64,000 bases of DNA from Flavobacterium sp. YO12 (GTDB taxonomy: Bacteria; Bacteroidota; Bacteroidia; Flavobacteriales; Flavobacteriaceae), in the NCBI RefSeq assembly GCF_004119495.1, contig NZ_NRQU01000013.1, positions 1 through 64,000 of the forward strand, read 5' to 3'. This document shows, in pieces, positions 1,787-51,204 of the stretch. How positions within the stretch are numbered: the first letter of the stretch is position 1; each line of letters starts with the position of its first letter. The translations under genes were made by a program, and so were the position numbers. The notes under the pieces are model-generated. The model saw nothing but the letters and a program-made list of their open reading frames with translations. It ran no database searches and had not been told where the DNA came from.

Positions 1787-3208
1787 CTAATCCTCCCTGC
1801 TTCCATCATCTGCCATTCTCACTAATTTAGGTGTAAACTTTGCTACAACATCTACTAAATCCTGTTGTGCTTCCATGACCTGATTGATATCTTTATACGC
1901 CATTGGAGCTTCGTCAAGACCTGCTCCGATAAGCGTAACGCCATGATCTCTCAGGATCGATTTCATTTCGGATTGTGTGATGTTTTTTATGGCTTGGGTT
2001 CTACTCATTTGTCTTCCTGCTCCATGCGAAGCGGAATTAATGGCGTTCTCCTCGCCTTTTCCTCTCACCAAAAATCCTGGTGCGGTCATACTTCCCGGAA
2101 TGATTCCCATAACGCCTTTTCCTGCTGGGGTTGCTCCTTTTCTATGTACGATCACTTCTTCGCCGTTCCAGATTTCTTTCCAGGCAAAATTATGGTGGTT
2201 TTCGACTTTGGCTAAAATCGTTGCACCCAAAGCGCGTTCCATTTTGTTATGGATAATCTCGTGACAAGCCGAAGCGTAATCTCCCGCCAAATTCATCGCC
2301 AGCCAATATTCCTGACCTAATTGTGAGTTCATATCTAAATACGCCAAGTTTTTTGCCACTTCTGGAAGTTTACATTCGTCTTTGGCGATTTTAGTATAAT
2401 GTCCGGCAATTGTGGCACCCATTCCTCGTGAACCAGAATGCGTTAACAAAGCGACGTATTTTCCTTTTGGGATATTCAAAACCGCATCGTCTTTTGCAAA
2501 TTCCATGATTCCGAATTCCACAAAGTGATTTCCACCACCCGAAGATCCTAATTGCGACCAAGCTTTATCTTTCAAATTCTTCACAAACGGATTCATATTG
2601 AACGTTTCGTTCTCCAAAACCGCATGATCTGATTTATACTGACCGTGAAATCCGTGACCTGCTCCAAACTTAGAATGCGCAATTAATTCTTTTTTGAATT
2701 TAGCTTCATTTTCAAAGTAAAAAGCTTCTGGAATATCATAAACCGACAACGCCATTCTACATCCAATATCAACGCCAACACCATACGGAATAATGGCATT
2801 TTTTGTGGCTAAAACTCCGCCAATCGGTAATCCGTAACCTTGATGCGCGTCTGGCATTAAAGCTCCTGCAACCGTCACAGGCAATTTCATGGCAATTTCC
2901 ATTTGTTTTCTGGCTCCGTCTTCGATATGATCTAATCCGTAAGCCGAATACGCATTCGGATTTTCATTTAAAGCGATGAAATCTTCTGGTTTTTCATTCG
3001 ATTTTTCGATTAAAGCAACAGCCAGTTTGCTGAAGATTTTATCGTCTATATAATGCTCAGGAGTTTCTAAGACGTTTTTGAAATTTGTGATCATTTCGTC
3101 TCTTGTGAATCCGTTTCTTTTGCTGTTTATTTTTAAGGCAATCCCGATTATTTTTCCTTCTGGAAATCCTAATTCTAATATATCTGTACCGTTTATTTGT
3201 GTTTTCAT
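1787..3208 (-). CDS. rtcB: RtcB family RNA-splicing ligase
   Basis: RtcB joins RNA 2',3'-cyclic phosphate or 3'-phosphate ends to 5'-OH ends, using GTP and Mn2+. The family signatures are all present: GVGVDIGC (metal-binding Cys), GSSGGGNHFVE, THSGSRGMG, the His pair in VENHHNFAW, HRKGATPAGKG, and SASHGAGRQMSR, which contains the guanylylated His. It is 473 aa, full length for the family. I place the start at ATG 3208, because the longer frame opens with a TTG seven codons upstream and RtcB proteins normally begin near this point. It lies downstream of, and on the same strand as, the RING/TerD-like gene and the tRNA-like array, which suggests RNA repair or RNA processing rather than housekeeping. 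Confidence 0.96.
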   Translation of the reverse strand: MKTQINGTDILELGFPEGKIIGIALKINSKRNGFTRDEMITNFKNVLETPEHYIDDKIFSKLAVALIEKSNEKPEDFIALNENPNAYSAYGLDHIEDGARKQMEIAMKLPVTVAGALMPDAHQGYGLPIGGVLATKNAIIPYGVGVDIGCRMALSVYDIPEAFYFENEAKFKKELIAHSKFGAGHGFHGQYKSDHAVLENETFNMNPFVKNLKDKAWSQLGSSGGGNHFVEFGIMEFAKDDAVLNIPKGKYVALLTHSGSRGMGATIAGHYTKIAKDECKLPEVAKNLAYLDMNSQLGQEYWLAMNLAGDYASACHEIIHNKMERALGATILAKVENHHNFAWKEIWNGEEVIVHRKGATPAGKGVMGIIPGSMTAPGFLVRGKGEENAINSASHGAGRQMSRTQAIKNITQSEMKSILRDHGVTLIGAGLDEAPMAYKDINQVMEAQQDLVDVVAKFTPKLVRMADDGSRED

Positions 3209-3220
3209 TTTTTCTTTTTT

Positions 3221-3413
3221 AAGGGACAAAGGTCCAGAGGTTCATAGGTGCAAAGGTTTTACACTGCTGCGCAGTTATTTTGCGTAGGTTTTTTATTTCA
3301 CGCAGATCTAAAAAGATTTTAGCAGATAAGCGCAGATTATTAATAAAAAATCCTTTTAGATCTGCTTAAATCTGCAAAATCTGCGTGAAACCTTTGCACC
3401 TTTGTCCCTTTGT
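3221..3413. repeat. Nested inverted repeat between rtcB and the RING/TerD gene
   Basis: The outer arms are AAGGGACAAAGG at the left and CCTTTGTCCCTT-like sequence at the right. The inner arms are TTTCACGCAGATCT at 3296 and GATCTGC...ATCTGCGTGAAA ending at 3390. These words are shared with other intergenic regions of the window. It occupies almost the entire 215-bp gap, so if the two flanking genes form one transcript this would be a long hairpin in it. Confidence 0.65.
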
Positions 3414-3423
3414 TACTTTGCTA

Positions 3424-5664
3424 CTAATCAACCAATAATTGCGTCACAACCGCTGGATTCATTGCCCATTGCGCTGTATAAACCTCATCGGCATTTTGAT
3501 CTTCGGTGATGGTTAAACCTTGGGCTTCCGCTTTAAGCTGTAACAAACTACCAATATTCAATTTGCTGTTTAGTTTTGACAACAACGCCTGAACGCCTTT
3601 GAAATCCAAACCACCTACAACCTGACCTCCGAAAGTCATCTCTAACCAAACGATTTCTCTTTTGGCTACATCCAACACTCCAAAAACCAAACCTTTGGCA
3701 AGATTCTGCGTCACACGAACCTGATGATCTACACACGACGGATCGTATGCTACACCTGTTTTCTCCGAAATTTTCATCGGGTGTTTGCTGTTCATCCAAC
3801 CTACAACCAAATTTGGCGTAATACTTCCCTTGATGTATGCATTACAAGTAAAAGTTACAAATTTAGCTTTGGCTTTCGCCAATTCGTCGATATTGATGTT
3901 GATATATTCAGCAGTTCCAATTTTATTCGGAATGCTTCGGATATCACCGCTATGCTGACAACCTGTTGTAGTCAATCGGCTGAAAGAACAAATATCAGAA
4001 CGATCTTCGTAAGCAATATGACAGCTCAAATCCATATCTAAATGTTGCGCTGGCAAATCTTTTCCCCATTGCATAAACAATCGCACTTCGTTACCTTCAA
4101 CTGAGAAACGTGTTCCCATTAAAGCAACTGGCAAATCCTGAACGGTTTCGCTTCGATCTCCTATAGAAACCGGAATGTTAAACAATTGCGGATCGATGTA
4201 GATTGTTTTGTTTGTGTTCGCAATTTTAGAAAATCGTTTTTTCATAGCCAAAAGACACAATTCTTCGATTTGATTTTTCATTGCTTCCAACTGAAAATCT
4301 TCATATAATCCTAATAACTGATTTGCACCAATTCGTTTGTTTATTCCTCCTAAAGGTTTCACACTTCTTTGCATGTTTTTATCAAAATAATTTTGAGCAT
4401 ACATGTTTAAAGTAAACACCAATCGAGCCGGAACTTTATCGATGATTTCTTCAAAATGGGCAATAGTTTCTTCAGCTCCAAACCATAACATATTCGAGAA
4501 TAACGAACGGGCAAATAATCCTGGACGCTGTTTTAATAACGCAAATGTTTTATCGGCATCAAATTTCAATCTTGAAGCATTCACTTCACTTTGCCAAACA
4601 TCATAAACCTTATTGTAAAATACATCCATTAAAGCAATTAATTTCTCAAACCCTTTTCTTTTGCTGTATTCTGCCAAACGCAACGCTCGGATAAAACGAA
4701 CCCACATTCCTCTTTTTGGATGCATCGTTTCGCACATCGCTTCAACTTCCATATTCATATTATTCAGCCAATTCGCCACCATTAAACATTCTTTTCGGGA
4801 ATATTTTAGTTTCAAATCTGTTTGAGACGCAATTCTCGCCTGAACGCTTGTATCTAAAACATTATGGAAATGCTGTGCATTTTTTGATGTTCTTTTGATA
4901 ATCGTTTTTGGCTCGATAATCTGAAGCATTGCTGTGTTTTTATACCACAAGTATCGTAAGATATCAGTTGGTGTTTTCAAAAACTGAGACGCTTGGTCTT
5001 CTTTACCGTTTTCGATCAAAAGATCGATTACCAGCATTAAAGTTTCCTTCATTGCTACTTCTGTTTTTGGTAAAGGCAAGTATTGCATTGCCATTTTTAA
5101 ACTATCTACCTGAGTAGCGTCTAAAGCGGTTTTAGATTGCAATAATGATATATAGAAATCATTTAAATCTTTTTCTGACCATAATTCCAGCATTTTTAAT
5201 TTGCTTCCTTGTCCGATATTTTCCAGTTTTCCGAATTCAAACGGAGTTCCGCAGAACGGACAACCGTTGTATCTTTCTAATGGAAAAGTATTATCTGGAA
5301 TAGTATGGCCGCATTGTAAAGTTGTTCCGTTTTTAGTTTTAAAAACATTTCCGAAATATGTGATAATATGATCCAAAACAGACTCACCTGTCGGGATATT
5401 CCATTCTTTTACCAATGGTGTCCAATTTTTATCAGTTCCTAAAACTTCTCTTAAAACTTCTAAAACCTCGATTTTGTATTTTGGGTTTACATTGTTTAAA
5501 GCATGAAGCAAAGATTCAGAAAATGTGAATCCAAGTTTAGAAACATTGGCTAACAAAACTGAAGTTGTTCCTGATAATTTTTTAACATCATTTGCAATCA
5601 TTTCTGATGGAATGAAAATAGCATTTTGACGTAAACTGATTTTTAATAATTCTCTTGTTTTCAT
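3424..5664 (-). CDS. Large protein with RING-like zinc knuckle and TerD-like C-terminus (MXAN_6230/SCO0854-type)
   Basis: This is a 746-aa soluble protein with no signal peptide. Near residues 118-138, C-x-H followed by C-x2-C (QCGHTIP...GCPFCGTPFEF) makes a half-RING zinc knuckle typical of the bacterial MXAN_6230/SCO0854 RING-domain family. The middle, about residues 150-480, is long and helical. Around residues 540-640, DMDLSCHIAY, a TGCQHSGDI segment and a repeat of hydrophobic strands match the TerD fold (DLDLS, HSGD). TerD-type proteins bind Ca2+ in stress-response systems; I infer a similar module here, and the family's biochemical role is not known to me. The gene sits directly 3' of the tRNA-like array and 5' of rtcB, all on one strand, so an RNA-repair or RNA-sensing role is plausible. 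Confidence 0.8.
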   Translation of the reverse strand: MKTRELLKISLRQNAIFIPSEMIANDVKKLSGTTSVLLANVSKLGFTFSESLLHALNNVNPKYKIEVLEVLREVLGTDKNWTPLVKEWNIPTGESVLDHIITYFGNVFKTKNGTTLQCGHTIPDNTFPLERYNGCPFCGTPFEFGKLENIGQGSKLKMLELWSEKDLNDFYISLLQSKTALDATQVDSLKMAMQYLPLPKTEVAMKETLMLVIDLLIENGKEDQASQFLKTPTDILRYLWYKNTAMLQIIEPKTIIKRTSKNAQHFHNVLDTSVQARIASQTDLKLKYSRKECLMVANWLNNMNMEVEAMCETMHPKRGMWVRFIRALRLAEYSKRKGFEKLIALMDVFYNKVYDVWQSEVNASRLKFDADKTFALLKQRPGLFARSLFSNMLWFGAEETIAHFEEIIDKVPARLVFTLNMYAQNYFDKNMQRSVKPLGGINKRIGANQLLGLYEDFQLEAMKNQIEELCLLAMKKRFSKIANTNKTIYIDPQLFNIPVSIGDRSETVQDLPVALMGTRFSVEGNEVRLFMQWGKDLPAQHLDMDLSCHIAYEDRSDICSFSRLTTTGCQHSGDIRSIPNKIGTAEYININIDELAKAKAKFVTFTCNAYIKGSITPNLVVGWMNSKHPMKISEKTGVAYDPSCVDHQVRVTQNLAKGLVFGVLDVAKREIVWLEMTFGGQVVGGLDFKGVQALLSKLNSKLNIGSLLQLKAEAQGLTITEDQNADEVYTAQWAMNPAVVTQLLVD

Positions 5665-5851
5665 TTTTTTTAATTTTTAAAATTTAGATAATTGCGTTTC
5701 TGAGTTCTACCTAAAAGAGTTTTGAAGTAAGAAACACTTGACCTGAAATTTGACGATAATGGATTAACTAAGCTAAAATGGAGCGGGCTACCGCGAAAGA
5801 AGTAAGTTAATCTTGACCCTCGTTTTTATTAATGATGATTTTAAAACTATG

Positions 5852-5868
5852 TTCGGATTCGAACCGAA
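5852..5868 (-). other. Isolated tRNA T-arm
   Basis: On the minus strand TTCGG-TTCGAAT-CCGAA is a perfect 5-bp stem with a canonical seven-base T-loop. It sits in the 33-nt body enclosed by the paired strands of repeat copy 3. I cannot find a matching acceptor stem, D-arm or anticodon arm around it, so it is a tRNA fragment or mimic and not a second complete tRNA. Confidence 0.7.
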
Positions 5869-5910
5869 ATTAGCCGTTGTCTGAAGTAAGTTTTAATTGA
5901 CCATTAATTG

Positions 5911-6027
5911 TGAAGCAGATGGGATTCGAACCCACGACCCGGACATTAGAAGTGTACGAAGTAAGTTTTGATTGACCTTTGAGGGATAATTTCAAAACTA
6001 CCTGCTCTACCGCTGAGCTACTGCTTC
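5911..6027 (-). tRNA. tRNA-Arg(UCU) cloverleaf interrupted by a 45-nt insert in the anticodon stem
   Basis: Read on the minus strand: acceptor GAAGCAG/CTGCTTC (7 bp, no mismatch), D-stem GCTC/GAGC with loop AGCGGTA, A26, then GG of the anticodon stem. A 45-nt insert (6000-5956) follows. After it come ACA, the loop CTTCTAA (anticodon TCT at 5950-5948), TGTCC, the variable loop GGGTC, the T-arm GTGGG-TTCGAAT-CCCAT, and discriminator A. Removing exactly 45 nt gives a 5-bp anticodon stem GGACA/TGTCC and a standard 72-nt tRNA; no other join gives a perfect stem. CCA is not encoded. The insert starts TAG, ends CTTCGT and contains copy 2 of the repeat motif, whose two strands pair. D-loop position 20 is U, not the A that is an Arg identity element in E. 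coli. It could be a spliced tRNA, a decoy or a tRNA mimic. Confidence 0.82.
5956..6000 (-). other. Intron-like 45-nt insert in tRNA-Arg
   Basis: The insert lies between tRNA positions 28 and 29. Its first nine bases TAGTTTTGA pair with TCAAAAC(T)TA near its 3' end, with one bulged T, and the loop between contains the conserved GGTCAA. The 5' boundary falls immediately before the stem and the 3' boundary six bases after it. It is far too short for a group I intron and does not show the two 3-nt bulges and 4-bp helix of an archaeal bulge-helix-bulge site. Confidence 0.75.
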
Positions 6028-6240
6028 ATAATAATTGAATAAAAAGGTAATGGCGTAAGTGTGTACGTGGAAAGTTTTCGAAGTAACTCAAACTTGACCT
6101 GTTTTATTCTTTATTTTATTTCTATGAACGTTTGTTTTTTATTTCTTGAACAAAGATTTCTAAACTAGTGCGCAATTATTTTGCGCAGTTAAAAAAGAAT
6201 TTTAAATTTGAATAAAACATTTATTTACAAAAATCAAATA

Positions 6241-6404
6241 AGTCCCAGCGGGACGGAATATTTATAGCTTTTTGATCATGCCTAAAAAGAGCCCCAGCGG
6301 GGCGACATGTTTTTTGATAAAGCCAAACTTAAGTATCGCTCCGCTGGAGCTTTATGATTGGGTCTTATAAATTAGCTATAAATATTTAGCTCCACTGGAG
6401 CTTA
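6241..6404. repeat. Palindromic intergenic repeat (CCAGCGGGGC type)
   Basis: The element has GTCCCAGCGGGAC at the left, AGCCCCAGCGGGGC in the middle and GCTCCGCTGGAGC and GCTCCACTGGAGC at the right, each nearly self-complementary. The sequence ATATTTATAGCT near 6256 is answered by AGCTATAAATATT near 6374, so the whole unit is an inverted repeat. This type of element is common between genes in flavobacteria. It fills the rest of the gap between the tRNA-like array and the HD gene. Confidence 0.75.
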
Positions 6405-6417
6405 ATTAAATCTTCTT

Positions 6418-7047
6418 ATGATTATGAATTTAGAAGAAATCTATTCTGAATTACTTTCGAACATTGGCTTTTCAGCAAATGAAATTCAGCAAAAATGGTT
6501 GGATTTAGAAAAGGCATATTCCAAAAAATCAAGGCATTATCATAATCTTACCCATTTAAAAGAAATGATTGCCAATTTTGAAATCTATCGAGATAAACTT
6601 CAAAGCCCGAACGAAATATTATTTTCAATCTTTTATCATGATTTTGTGTATTCGGCTTCCAAAAAAGATAATGAACTCAAAAGTGCCGAATTTGCTTTGG
6701 CAATCCTATCTAAAAATATCAATCTGAATAAACAATTAATTTTTGATGCCATTTGTGCTACACAACAACATCAGCAAAATGAAATTGAAGACATTAATTG
6801 GCTAATCGATTTTGATTTGAAAATACTCGCTAAAGATTGGGAAGATTATAAAATCTATTTTGAACAAATTAGAAAAGAATATCGCATTTATCCTGATTTT
6901 CTATACAAACCTGGGCGCGCAAAAGCGTTGAAGCATTTTCTGGAGAATGAATTTATTTTTCAGACTGATGAGTTTAGGAGTTTGCATGAAGAGAAAGCGA
7001 GAGCGAATATTGAAAAAGAAATAAGCATTTTAGAAAGCAAAAAATAA
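6418..7047 (+). CDS. HD-superfamily phosphohydrolase (predicted)
   Basis: This 209-aa soluble protein has the HD-type metal ligands in order: YHNLTHLKEM (His and following His), FYHDFVYSASKKDNE (HD pair), then ATQQHQQ and WLIDFDLKILAKDW with a late Asp. The arrangement matches the COG4339-type predicted metal-dependent HD hydrolases of about 200 aa. The substrate is unknown for this group. A second ATG two codons inside could be the start. It is transcribed away from the RING/TerD-rtcB operon and towards the WYL regulator; a functional link to RNA repair is possible but not shown. Confidence 0.78.
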   Translation: MIMNLEEIYSELLSNIGFSANEIQQKWLDLEKAYSKKSRHYHNLTHLKEMIANFEIYRDKLQSPNEILFSIFYHDFVYSASKKDNELKSAEFALAILSKNINLNKQLIFDAICATQQHQQNEIEDINWLIDFDLKILAKDWEDYKIYFEQIRKEYRIYPDFLYKPGRAKALKHFLENEFIFQTDEFRSLHEEKARANIEKEISILESKK

Positions 7048-7233: not shown

Positions 7234-7325
7234 AAAAATGAGGAAAATCATTTTAATCCTTTAATCTGCGGCATAAAAAAATAAAAACTTTGCGCCCTCG
7301 TGCCTTTGTGGCAAAACACAAAAAA

Positions 7326-8363
7326 ATGTCACAAAACAAAAACGCCTTAATCCGATACAAAACCATCGACAAATGCCTTCAGAATAAATACAGGCAATGG
7401 ACATTAGAAGATTTAATCGAATGTTGCTCTGAAGCATTATTTGAATATGAAGGACGACAAAACCCAATCAGCAAGCGAACCATTCAAATGGATATTCAAT
7501 TGATGCGAAGTGAAAAGCTCGGTTATAATGCACCAATCGTGGTTTACGATAAAAAGTATTATAAATATGAAGACGAAGATTTTTCGATAACCGATATTCC
7601 GCTGACGGAAACCGATATGAATGTTTTAACAGAAACCGTTTCGATGTTGAAGCAGTTTAAAGATTTCTCTCTATTTAATGATGTATCGGATATCTTACAA
7701 CGTTTAGAAGATAAAATCTATGCCGAAAAATCGCACACCAAACCTGTTATTTATTTGGATAAAAATGAGAGTCTAAAAGGTTTGCACTATTTAGACGAAG
7801 TTTATCAGGCAATCATTAAAAAAGTTGTACTTGTGATTACTTACAAATCGTTCAAATCAAAAGAAGAGAGTAAATTTCATTTTCATCCCTTTATATTAAA
7901 GGAATTCAACAATCGCTGGTTTTTGATTGGTAAAACAAAAGCTTCACAACCAATTACCAATTTAGCATTAGACAGAATTATTGCAATTGATTACGATTTT
8001 AACATTCCTTATTTAGAAGAACATTTTGATGCTGATACTTATTATAAGGATATAATCGGTGTAACTGTAAATTCTGGTTTACAGCCCAGACGCATTGAGC
8101 TTTGGATTGACGCAATAAATGCACCTTATGTGTTAACAAAACCGCTGCATTCGTCGCAGCGATTGATTAAGGAAAATGAAGATAAAAGTATTATTGTGCA
8201 TTTGTTTATTTCACCTAATTATGAAATGGAACGGCTTCTATTAGGTTTTGGAGATTCTATAGAAATTTTAAGGCCTGAAAATCTAAGAAATCGCATGAAA
8301 ACGATTCTAAAAAAGGCAATCTCAAGATATGAAACCGAAAACGGCACTGAATTAAATGCATAG
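7326..8363 (+). CDS. WYL-domain transcriptional regulator
   Basis: This 345-aa regulator has an N-terminal winged-helix region (about residues 1-75, including YKTIDKCLQNKYRQWTLEDLIECCSEAL and SKRTIQMDIQLMR), a linker, and a WYL-type ligand-binding domain from about residue 140 (VVLVITYKSFKSKEESKFHFHPFILKEFNNRWFLIG), followed by the C-terminal extension. WYL regulators sense nucleic-acid or nucleotide ligands and often control defence or stress genes. The longer frame starts at a TTG 12 codons upstream, and ATG 7326 is the better start. Its location near rtcB makes it a candidate controller of that locus. Confidence 0.88.
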   Translation: MSQNKNALIRYKTIDKCLQNKYRQWTLEDLIECCSEALFEYEGRQNPISKRTIQMDIQLMRSEKLGYNAPIVVYDKKYYKYEDEDFSITDIPLTETDMNVLTETVSMLKQFKDFSLFNDVSDILQRLEDKIYAEKSHTKPVIYLDKNESLKGLHYLDEVYQAIIKKVVLVITYKSFKSKEESKFHFHPFILKEFNNRWFLIGKTKASQPITNLALDRIIAIDYDFNIPYLEEHFDADTYYKDIIGVTVNSGLQPRRIELWIDAINAPYVLTKPLHSSQRLIKENEDKSIIVHLFISPNYEMERLLLGFGDSIEILRPENLRNRMKTILKKAISRYETENGTELNA

Positions 8364-46297: not shown

Positions 46298-46381
46298 GGA
46301 GCTGAAACCTGCTGTACGCTATATCTTTTGTGTCGAACACCGCCACAAAAGGATGCCGCTTCCATCAGGGCTAGGGCAATC
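46298..46381. repeat. Conserved intergenic repeat upstream of fumC
   Basis: The sequence contains ATCTTTTGTG and CACAAAAGGAT as inverted arms (46321-46356) and then GCCGCTTCCATCAGGGCTAG, which is far richer in G and C than its surroundings. I recall this type of element between genes in other Flavobacterium genomes, though I cannot verify it here. The longer frame that enters fumC through it is an artefact. The rest of the 307-bp gap is AT-rich with nothing recognisable. Confidence 0.55.
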
Positions 46382-50806: not shown

Positions 50807-51201
50807 GGGGTCGACTGGTTTTGACAGCAAGTCGAATTGAACAGTAAGCACGTCGAGCATTGAGACCTTGCTCGTAAATATAAGATCTCACACTTTTACA
50901 CGGCGAAAATAATTACGCTTTAGCTGCATAATCCGAATCATAGTAAGATTGCGCCACGTCTCTACAAGGTAGAGAAGCTGGATTCTCCTAGAAAGCCTTG
51001 GTTTGTGGCGTTCTGTCAAGGGGAACCGTAAAAATAAACCTAGATTTCCATGAGCTTCGGGTGGATTTCGAAAATTAAGAAGATAAGTGTTGGGTGGTTG
51101 TTTCTGGCCTAGCTCAACAACGAAAATCTAATCAGGAAATAAGCGTGTAGAAAGCTCTTTAGTTGCTTGTTTGGACCCGGGTTCGATTCCCGGCGACTCC
51201 A
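50807..51201 (+). ncRNA. ssrA: Transfer-messenger RNA (tmRNA)
   Basis: The 5' end GGGGTCGACTGG pairs with the 3' end CGACTCC (+A), and the T-arm GGTTCGATTCC is directly before it, so the tRNA-like domain is complete. The tag frame reads GGC-GAA-AAT-AAT-TAC-GCT-TTA-GCT-GCA-TAA, giving (A)GENNYALAA with the usual YALAA degron. About 395 nt. CCA is not encoded (ACA follows). It rescues stalled ribosomes and tags the products for proteolysis. Confidence 0.97.
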
Positions 51202-51204
51202 CAA

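Follow-up and report, generated by a model that had tools for sequence, protein, structure and literature searches.

The window analysed here, i.e. the whole 64,000-nt stretch at the start of contig NZ_NRQU01000013.1 from Flavobacterium sp. YO12, contains on its minus strand an interrupted transfer RNA (tRNA) that an earlier note had described as a tRNA-Arg(UCU) gene with a 45-nt insert (6027-5911). This element, here called U2, lies in a gap of 753 bases (5665-6417) upstream of an open reading frame (ORF) of 746 amino acids (aa), which is itself followed by rtcB, the gene of the RNA ligase RtcB. Five copies of a short motif fill this intergenic gap, one of them carried by the insert of U2.

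An interrupted tRNA in an array of five units

The sequence of U2 (5911..6027, minus strand) was as previously described. The Rfam tRNA model RF00005 covered it from end to end at 48.2 bits (gathering threshold 29) with a disrupted anticodon region, model R1 scored it at 136.3 bits, and covariation (see below) agreed with the assignment; ARAGORN called no tRNA at this position. Overall, U2 forms a complete tRNA cloverleaf with all pairs of the acceptor (7/7), D (4/4) and T (5/5) stems in place and a Y-type stem lodged between tRNA positions 28 and 29, which confirmed the insertion point named in the earlier note. GG stands before and ACA-CUUCUAA-UGU-CC after the insert. This residual anticodon arm (5941..5955 with its CC, minus strand; sequence and covariation, helices 3 and 6) has a loop that reads UCU, as the note had stated, with the anticodon at 5950-5948, and its CC pairs with the GG at 6002-6001. 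The D-loop has U20. A separate, ordinary tRNA-Arg(UCU) is present in the same genome, and U2 is therefore not required for AGA codons.

The 45-nt insert (5956..6000, minus strand), delimited by sequence, motif, partner pairing, covariation and fold, begins with the 3' strand GUUUUGA-A-AUUAUC, passes through a terminal loop and ends with the 5' strand GGUCAA-UCAAAAC-UUACUUC, i.e. it is the stem shared by the array units in permuted strand order, closed by its own loop; GGUCAAUCAAAACUUACUUC is present within it. The minimum-energy fold of U2 comprised the acceptor, D and T arms and a hairpin within the insert (z-score -2.9), and 1 of 200 shuffles folded equally well. Across 5640-6160, tRNA was the sole Rfam family above threshold; the other matches listed, to small nucleolar RNA models and a single plastid model, fell far short of it and lay on the opposite strand. 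A group I or II intron, which the earlier note had already discounted, was rejected for an insert of 45 nt with no match to an Rfam intron family up to E 10 in this interval.

The pattern GGTCAAN{5,9}CTTACTTC occurred four times in the whole 4.9-Mb draft genome, every copy falling within 5665-6417, and its backward control gave 0 copies genome-wide; the fifth motif copy (U1) has GTTACTTC as its end. A looser motif without the C matched in 165 of 249 genomes of the genus and its backward control matched too, so that single matches prove nothing and it is the cluster that counts. The units follow the layout GGUCAA, 7 nt, UUACUUC, loop, 7 complementary nt, one base, and AUUAUC or AUUACC, as read from 17 of the 44 upstream regions in our motif table (44 loci, some sharing a genome). 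Besides U2, the array consists of four Y-like units on the same strand, namely U1 (6046..6099; motif and covarying partner strand; fold z -0.9, weak), U3 (5834..5902; motif and partner strand; z -0.9, weak), U4 (5755..5818; motif and partner strand; z -2.2) and U5 (5687..5743; motif and partner strand; z -1.5), the last of which falls in the leader, shortly ahead of the start codon (5664). All four have the normal strand order with both ends within the stem, and the loop of U3 carries a T-arm-like hairpin, UUCGG-UUCGAAU-CCGAA.

Conservation and covariation of the interrupted RNA

The earlier note had proposed a search of relatives for the same tRNA plus insert. A covariance model of the interrupted RNA was run over the sample of 249 genus genomes, with 14 candidates scored per genome under strict filters; all 249 gave some match, since ordinary tRNAs fit the model. 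Strong matches (34, of 90-138 bits) were found in 32 of the 249 genomes, all among the 35 that carry a relative of the 746-aa protein (G192 by a weak, phage-like match only), and the other matches listed scored 59 bits or less. U2 is thus no product of chance, and within this sample the interrupted RNA is confined to carriers of the protein gene. The carriers without a strong RNA match were G192, G099 and G255 (G and L numbers denote individual genomes and loci): G255 has a nested form of the RNA, and G099 has two units, no tRNA-like one being seen among them, and a protein 99% identical to a Myroides protein. A Band-7 (SPFH) gene (L077, 515-1609) lies directly upstream of the two-unit array in G099, with similar genes in the flanks of L122, L148, L167 and L180.

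One scan of named genomes returned 422 relatives of the 746-aa protein, and locus counts out of 80 refer to the best 80 of these, which come from Flavobacterium, Chryseobacterium, Myroides, Aquimarina, Tenacibaculum, Dysgonomonas, Emticicia, Taibaiella, Saprospiraceae and other taxa. The motif was found upstream of the protein gene at all 80 loci, in 2-8 copies each, and a tRNA-like RNA with 11-12 of the 12 acceptor and T-stem pairs at 75; in L148, L176, L182 and L186, the tRNA-like RNA was found by eye and scored 60-77 bits with the covariance model. The motif or a close variant lay inside the tRNA-like RNA at 78 of the 80 loci, a count that includes close variants of the GGUCAA half (e.g. 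L143, L162, L169, L179). L171 has a tRNA-like RNA at the usual place (5739-5841) whose insert is without the motif, and no motif-bearing tRNA-like RNA was seen in L181. The D-arm of L182 and L186 is of another type, which suggests that other tRNA bodies were taken up independently.

Partner strands pairing at 6 or 7 of 7 positions were present for 291 of the 361 motif copies over the 80 loci, compared to 22 of 361 after one shuffle of the helix letters. The best partner lay upstream in 68 of the 291, including the permuted stems inside tRNAs, although some of these 68 (and some downstream partners) belong to an adjacent unit, e.g. in L110, and not all are permuted stems. At ten loci upstream of the homologous gene (L130, L154, L157, L160, L161, L165, L168, L174, L179 and L184), a second unit was found by eye nested in the loop of the inserted stem, giving RNAs of 194-236 nt; the nested second units inspected had a T-arm-like hairpin. 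Counting RNAs with at least two TACTYC gives 11 nested loci, of which L170 is a false one. In L114, L124, L141 and L143, the five-pair anticodon stem is whole and the insert sits in the anticodon loop.

Covariation was assessed in an alignment of 44 distinct sequences, made up of 42 of the 75 RNAs found by pattern, the window RNA and L076. Omitted from it are the ten nested RNAs, L171, three duplicate rows and a further 19 RNAs, for the most part from close Flavobacterium relatives; L162 and L169 are kept, and their misaligned stems depress the paired fraction. In the named structure (acceptor, D, GG/CC, inserted stem, three-pair anticodon arm and T), 96.5% of cells were paired, with two-sided changes in 19 of 34 pairs (91 cells). 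None of 500 shuffles reached these values and slid versions of the structure were 33-45% paired, controls that flatter the structure, since one of these related sequences served as its template. Taken by itself, the inserted stem was paired in 93.9% of cells; two-sided changes occur in 6 of its 12 pairs, and its weakest pair fails in 13 of the 44 sequences. The shape of the anticodon arm is conserved (91.9% over its three pairs), and its triplet varies among orthologues: in the 56 RNAs (out of 76, window included) with a 3+7+3 hairpin and U33, it reads UUU in 33, UCU in 14 and other triplets in 9, which is not the conserved anticodon identity of a decoding tRNA. Anticodon drift, together with the loop insertions, the nesting and the ordinary tRNA-Arg(UCU), argues against the view that a conserved, decoding tRNA here harbours a passive intron.

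The neighbouring protein, RtcB and a shared palindrome

The 746-aa protein (3424..5664, minus strand) combines a RING-like zinc site of the SCO0854 / Prok-RING_4 group, a helical domain and a C-terminal TerD domain. No Pfam model matched it at 1e-3, and some of its relatives bear PF14447. It matched the MXAN_6230/SCO0854 family RING protein model (NF041916, Prok-RING_4) at 1.2e-32, with the best stretch at residues 355-681 and a second matching stretch at profile positions 6-341, but scored 113 bits against a cut-off of 600. The helical domain is predicted to have a Ro60-like fold. With the full model, Foldseek returned TerD alone at E<=0.001 and Ro60 came up on re-alignment, with structural matches to 1yvp/1yvr; with the helical domain alone, Ro60 was absent from the Foldseek top 50 and ranked 3-5 upon re-alignment. 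The protein resembles Ro60/Rsr (TROVE plus vWA) in this match and in having Y-like RNAs and RtcB encoded beside its predicted helical domain. It differs in that the RING-like site lies on the N side and TerD replaces vWA, no vWA domain being found. That the neighbour is a plain TROVE protein was not borne out, as Pfam and an own-genome search found no TROVE signature in it and comparing profiles with 15 TROVE proteins yielded no match.

L081 (1718-3799), on a phage-like contig and beside a thyX-like gene, encodes a RING-less relative that has a TerD domain, and the protein search gave 61 further close relatives. The RNA model found no unit near this gene, and viral contigs scanned with the RING-less relative gave no match. 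Both systems are present on contig C54 of G550, where the RING-TerD gene lies at 323707 and the TROVE gene at 397911.

The gene for RtcB (PF01139, 5e-83) lies at 1787..3229 on the minus strand. Pattern search located an operator-like palindrome, TGCGCAAAATAATTGCGCA, upstream of the array (6169..6187, minus strand), and a second copy upstream of rtcB (3268..3286, minus strand). The genome holds two exact copies of TRCGYARAATAAYTGCGYA, before the array (6187-6169) and before rtcB (3286-3268), the control having none; one more match, with one mismatch, lies beside ORFs without an evident link. A looser palindrome was present at most 200 nt upstream of the first unit at 64 of the 80 loci and gave 0 matches in shuffled sequence. 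A close rtcB was found at 32 of the 80 loci (30 of the 71 whose downstream sequence extended over 4.5 kb or more) and the palindrome lay within 250 nt of 26 of these 32 genes; RtcB was distant in 5 loci. The link to RtcB that the earlier note had drawn is thus supported by an operator-like element common to array and ligase gene. A WYL/WCX-domain regulator (7290..8363, plus strand; domain search), with relatives in the fetched flanks of 52 of the 80 loci, is a candidate reader of the palindrome.

RNA-handling genes also occur near the array elsewhere, namely an Rnl2-type ligase (L130, L161) and RlaP (L107); L130 also has an exonuclease and a bpX4 ternary-system protein, and L168 a macro domain. 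In 10 of the 80 loci, the fetched flanks contain at least three tRNA genes. This neighbourhood of RNA repair and tRNA genes would fit a response to tRNA damage. Between 6 and 11 tRNA genes stand beside the array and the Ro60-like gene in L132, L154, L157, L165 and L174 (within 2 kb upstream) and in L160 and L179 (further off), and some entries in those tRNA arrays are odd, e.g. a tRNA called SeC. In the window, a 209-aa ORF of no recognised family (6418-7047) is divergent from the array and has a relative in the flanks of 48 of the 80 loci, and a Flavo-1 RNA (46301-46376) and a transfer-messenger RNA (tmRNA; 50807-51204) were ordinary matches.

Likeness to Y RNAs and rival explanations

Excerpts of PMC8394870, PMC7790460 and PMC11472068 describe bacterial Ro/Y-RNA particles with TROVE proteins and permuted tRNA mimics, and the last of these gives the order of YrlA relative to tRNA as a circular permutation. 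TROVE genes were found in 23 of the 296 Bacteroidota genomes sampled, and 15 of those loci (L234-L248) served as the comparison set. Arrays of TG[CT][CT]GT...UACUUCG units, i.e. the helix followed by UUACUUC with a different outer half, were present at 11 of the 15. Both locus sets were tested by one script, in which the linear search spans more positions than the permuted one. Requiring a 7-of-7 acceptor per five-pair T-arm, the TROVE loci gave 11 permuted and 0 linear forms among 26 T-arms, and the RING-TerD loci 83 linear (at 75 of the 80 loci) and 2 permuted among 121 T-arms within 700 nt; with at least 6 of 7 acceptor pairs, the counts were 13 permuted and 7 linear, and 4 permuted and 91 linear, respectively. 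The topology of U2 is opposite to that of canonical Y RNAs.

Similar to Y RNAs of the YrlA type (Salmonella YrlA, PDB 6CU1; L234-L248), the array shows tandem units, linkage to RtcB, a tRNA-like domain with D, T and acceptor arms (in U2), and a variable helix of ~7 bp followed by UUACUUC (UACUUCG in the YrlA type). The looser palindrome is likewise shared, being found at 13 of the 15 TROVE loci, where its position precedes the start of rsr or, in the case of L243, the Y units. In YrlA, however, the acceptor is closed by a loop and the ends lie in the Ro stem, whereas U2 has an open acceptor, a loop-closed stem and an anticodon arm, and its tRNA part is not permuted; among the array units, it is U1 and U3-U5 that have their ends in the stem. 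The outer stem is GGUCAA in the array units and UGYYGUAGA in the YrlA type. The rsr-yrlBA-rtcBA operon of Salmonella also brings a Ro-like protein, Y RNAs and RtcB together, with a proposed tRNA link in the excerpt of PMC7790460, but the array locus has a WYL regulator and palindrome rather than the activator RtcR, and no rtcA or rtcR was recognised beside it. A literature search that left out Chen 2014, Wang 2018, Sim 2018 and 2020, and Burroughs and Aravind 2016 found no mention of an unpermuted Y-RNA form. In tmRNA, a tRNA-like part is fused on its anticodon side to a second functional RNA part; U2 differs from it in having no message part and an inserted stem that is closed and short.

Given that the motif occurs five times, that the stem covaries, that the tRNA arms are conserved and that rtcB has the same palindrome, we consider it probable that U2 is one of five tandem Y-RNA-like units, acting uncut as the tRNA-shaped arm of a ribonucleoprotein with the predicted Ro60-like RING-TerD protein. 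The stem would bind the neighbouring protein as a Y RNA binds Ro60, and the open tRNA end may be trimmed and given CCA like a tRNA. This end could then anchor the particle to a partner that handles tRNA, be it a nuclease, a ligase or a modification enzyme, or serve as bait; an excerpt of PMC7790460 describes Rsr of Deinococcus as tethered to PNPase by a Y RNA. The particle might survey damaged or misfolded tRNA-like RNAs, and array and RtcB would be induced jointly via the palindrome. A YYRYC partner-strand box was present in only 14 of 36 canonical Y units, a count taken with no shuffled control; a shared box is not established, which slightly lowers our confidence in this reading. Of the earlier interpretation, the tRNA mimic and the RtcB link were supported and the intron was not, and it had missed the array, the Ro60-like neighbour and the likeness to Y RNAs.

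Alternatively, U2 could be a genuine tRNA whose small intron, the stem, is excised, with the exons joined by RtcB and the tRNA used; the freed stem may then itself be a Y RNA. Deletion of the 45 nt leaves a textbook tRNA according to the earlier note, the residual anticodon arm is kept with compensatory changes in the stems, and rtcB has the same palindrome. We nevertheless regard this as unlikely, as the stem is also found free of any tRNA in four sister units, shows covariation within the RNA, holds a nested second unit in ten relatives and sits in the anticodon loop in four others, and as the anticodon drifts beside an ordinary tRNA-Arg(UCU). The new kind of RtcB-finished intron proposed earlier was therefore not upheld, though excision of the insert is conceivable. 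A decaying tRNA pseudogene invaded by a repeat would account for the silence of ARAGORN and for U20, but is hardly credible for an RNA whose stems are conserved across genera by compensatory changes and which co-occurs with the protein gene.

The repeats could also work in cis within an mRNA leader, as an attenuator or a protein operator, and not as free RNAs, given that all units lie on the coding strand upstream of the gene and U5 directly precedes its start codon, where the protein may limit its own synthesis. A leader element would not call for a complete tRNA that has its own ends and arms that covary, and the unit number is variable; as an account of the array we find this improbable. 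A tethered bait or sensor, in which the anticodon loop (mostly UUU or UCU) is cut by anticodon nucleases and the cut sensed or repaired by RtcB, is compatible with a Y-RNA-like, tRNA-shaped arm and would give this arm its purpose. The conservation of the anticodon arm as a shape is consistent with it, as are the neighbouring RtcB, Rnl2-type ligase, RlaP and tRNA genes. However, L114, L124, L141 and L143 are without the usual anticodon loop, the stem being inserted there, and in the excerpt of PMC7790460 the tRNA-like part of Salmonella YrlA is reportedly uncut by a RecA-dependent nuclease, and we hold the bait or sensor to be possible but doubtful.

More tentatively still than the Y-RNA-like reading of U2 itself, the system might represent a second Ro/Y-RNA branch, in which TROVE-less RING-TerD proteins of Ro60 fold act with Y RNAs, one of them a true tRNA with the Ro stem as its fifth arm. 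Tailed with CCA, this RNA would survey tRNA-handling enzymes as a tethered sentinel for anticodon cleavage resealed by RtcB, with nested Y RNAs in some relatives. U2 would independently test the role of the tRNA part of Y RNAs, because its open acceptor end could be processed, CCA-tailed and recognised like a tRNA. The finding accounts for a gene skipped by one tRNA finder and gives RtcB both a candidate RNA partner and a candidate operator. With 422 protein relatives, a widespread Bacteroidota lineage appears to keep the Ro/Y logic with a protein invisible to the TROVE model and a tRNA mimic in natural order.
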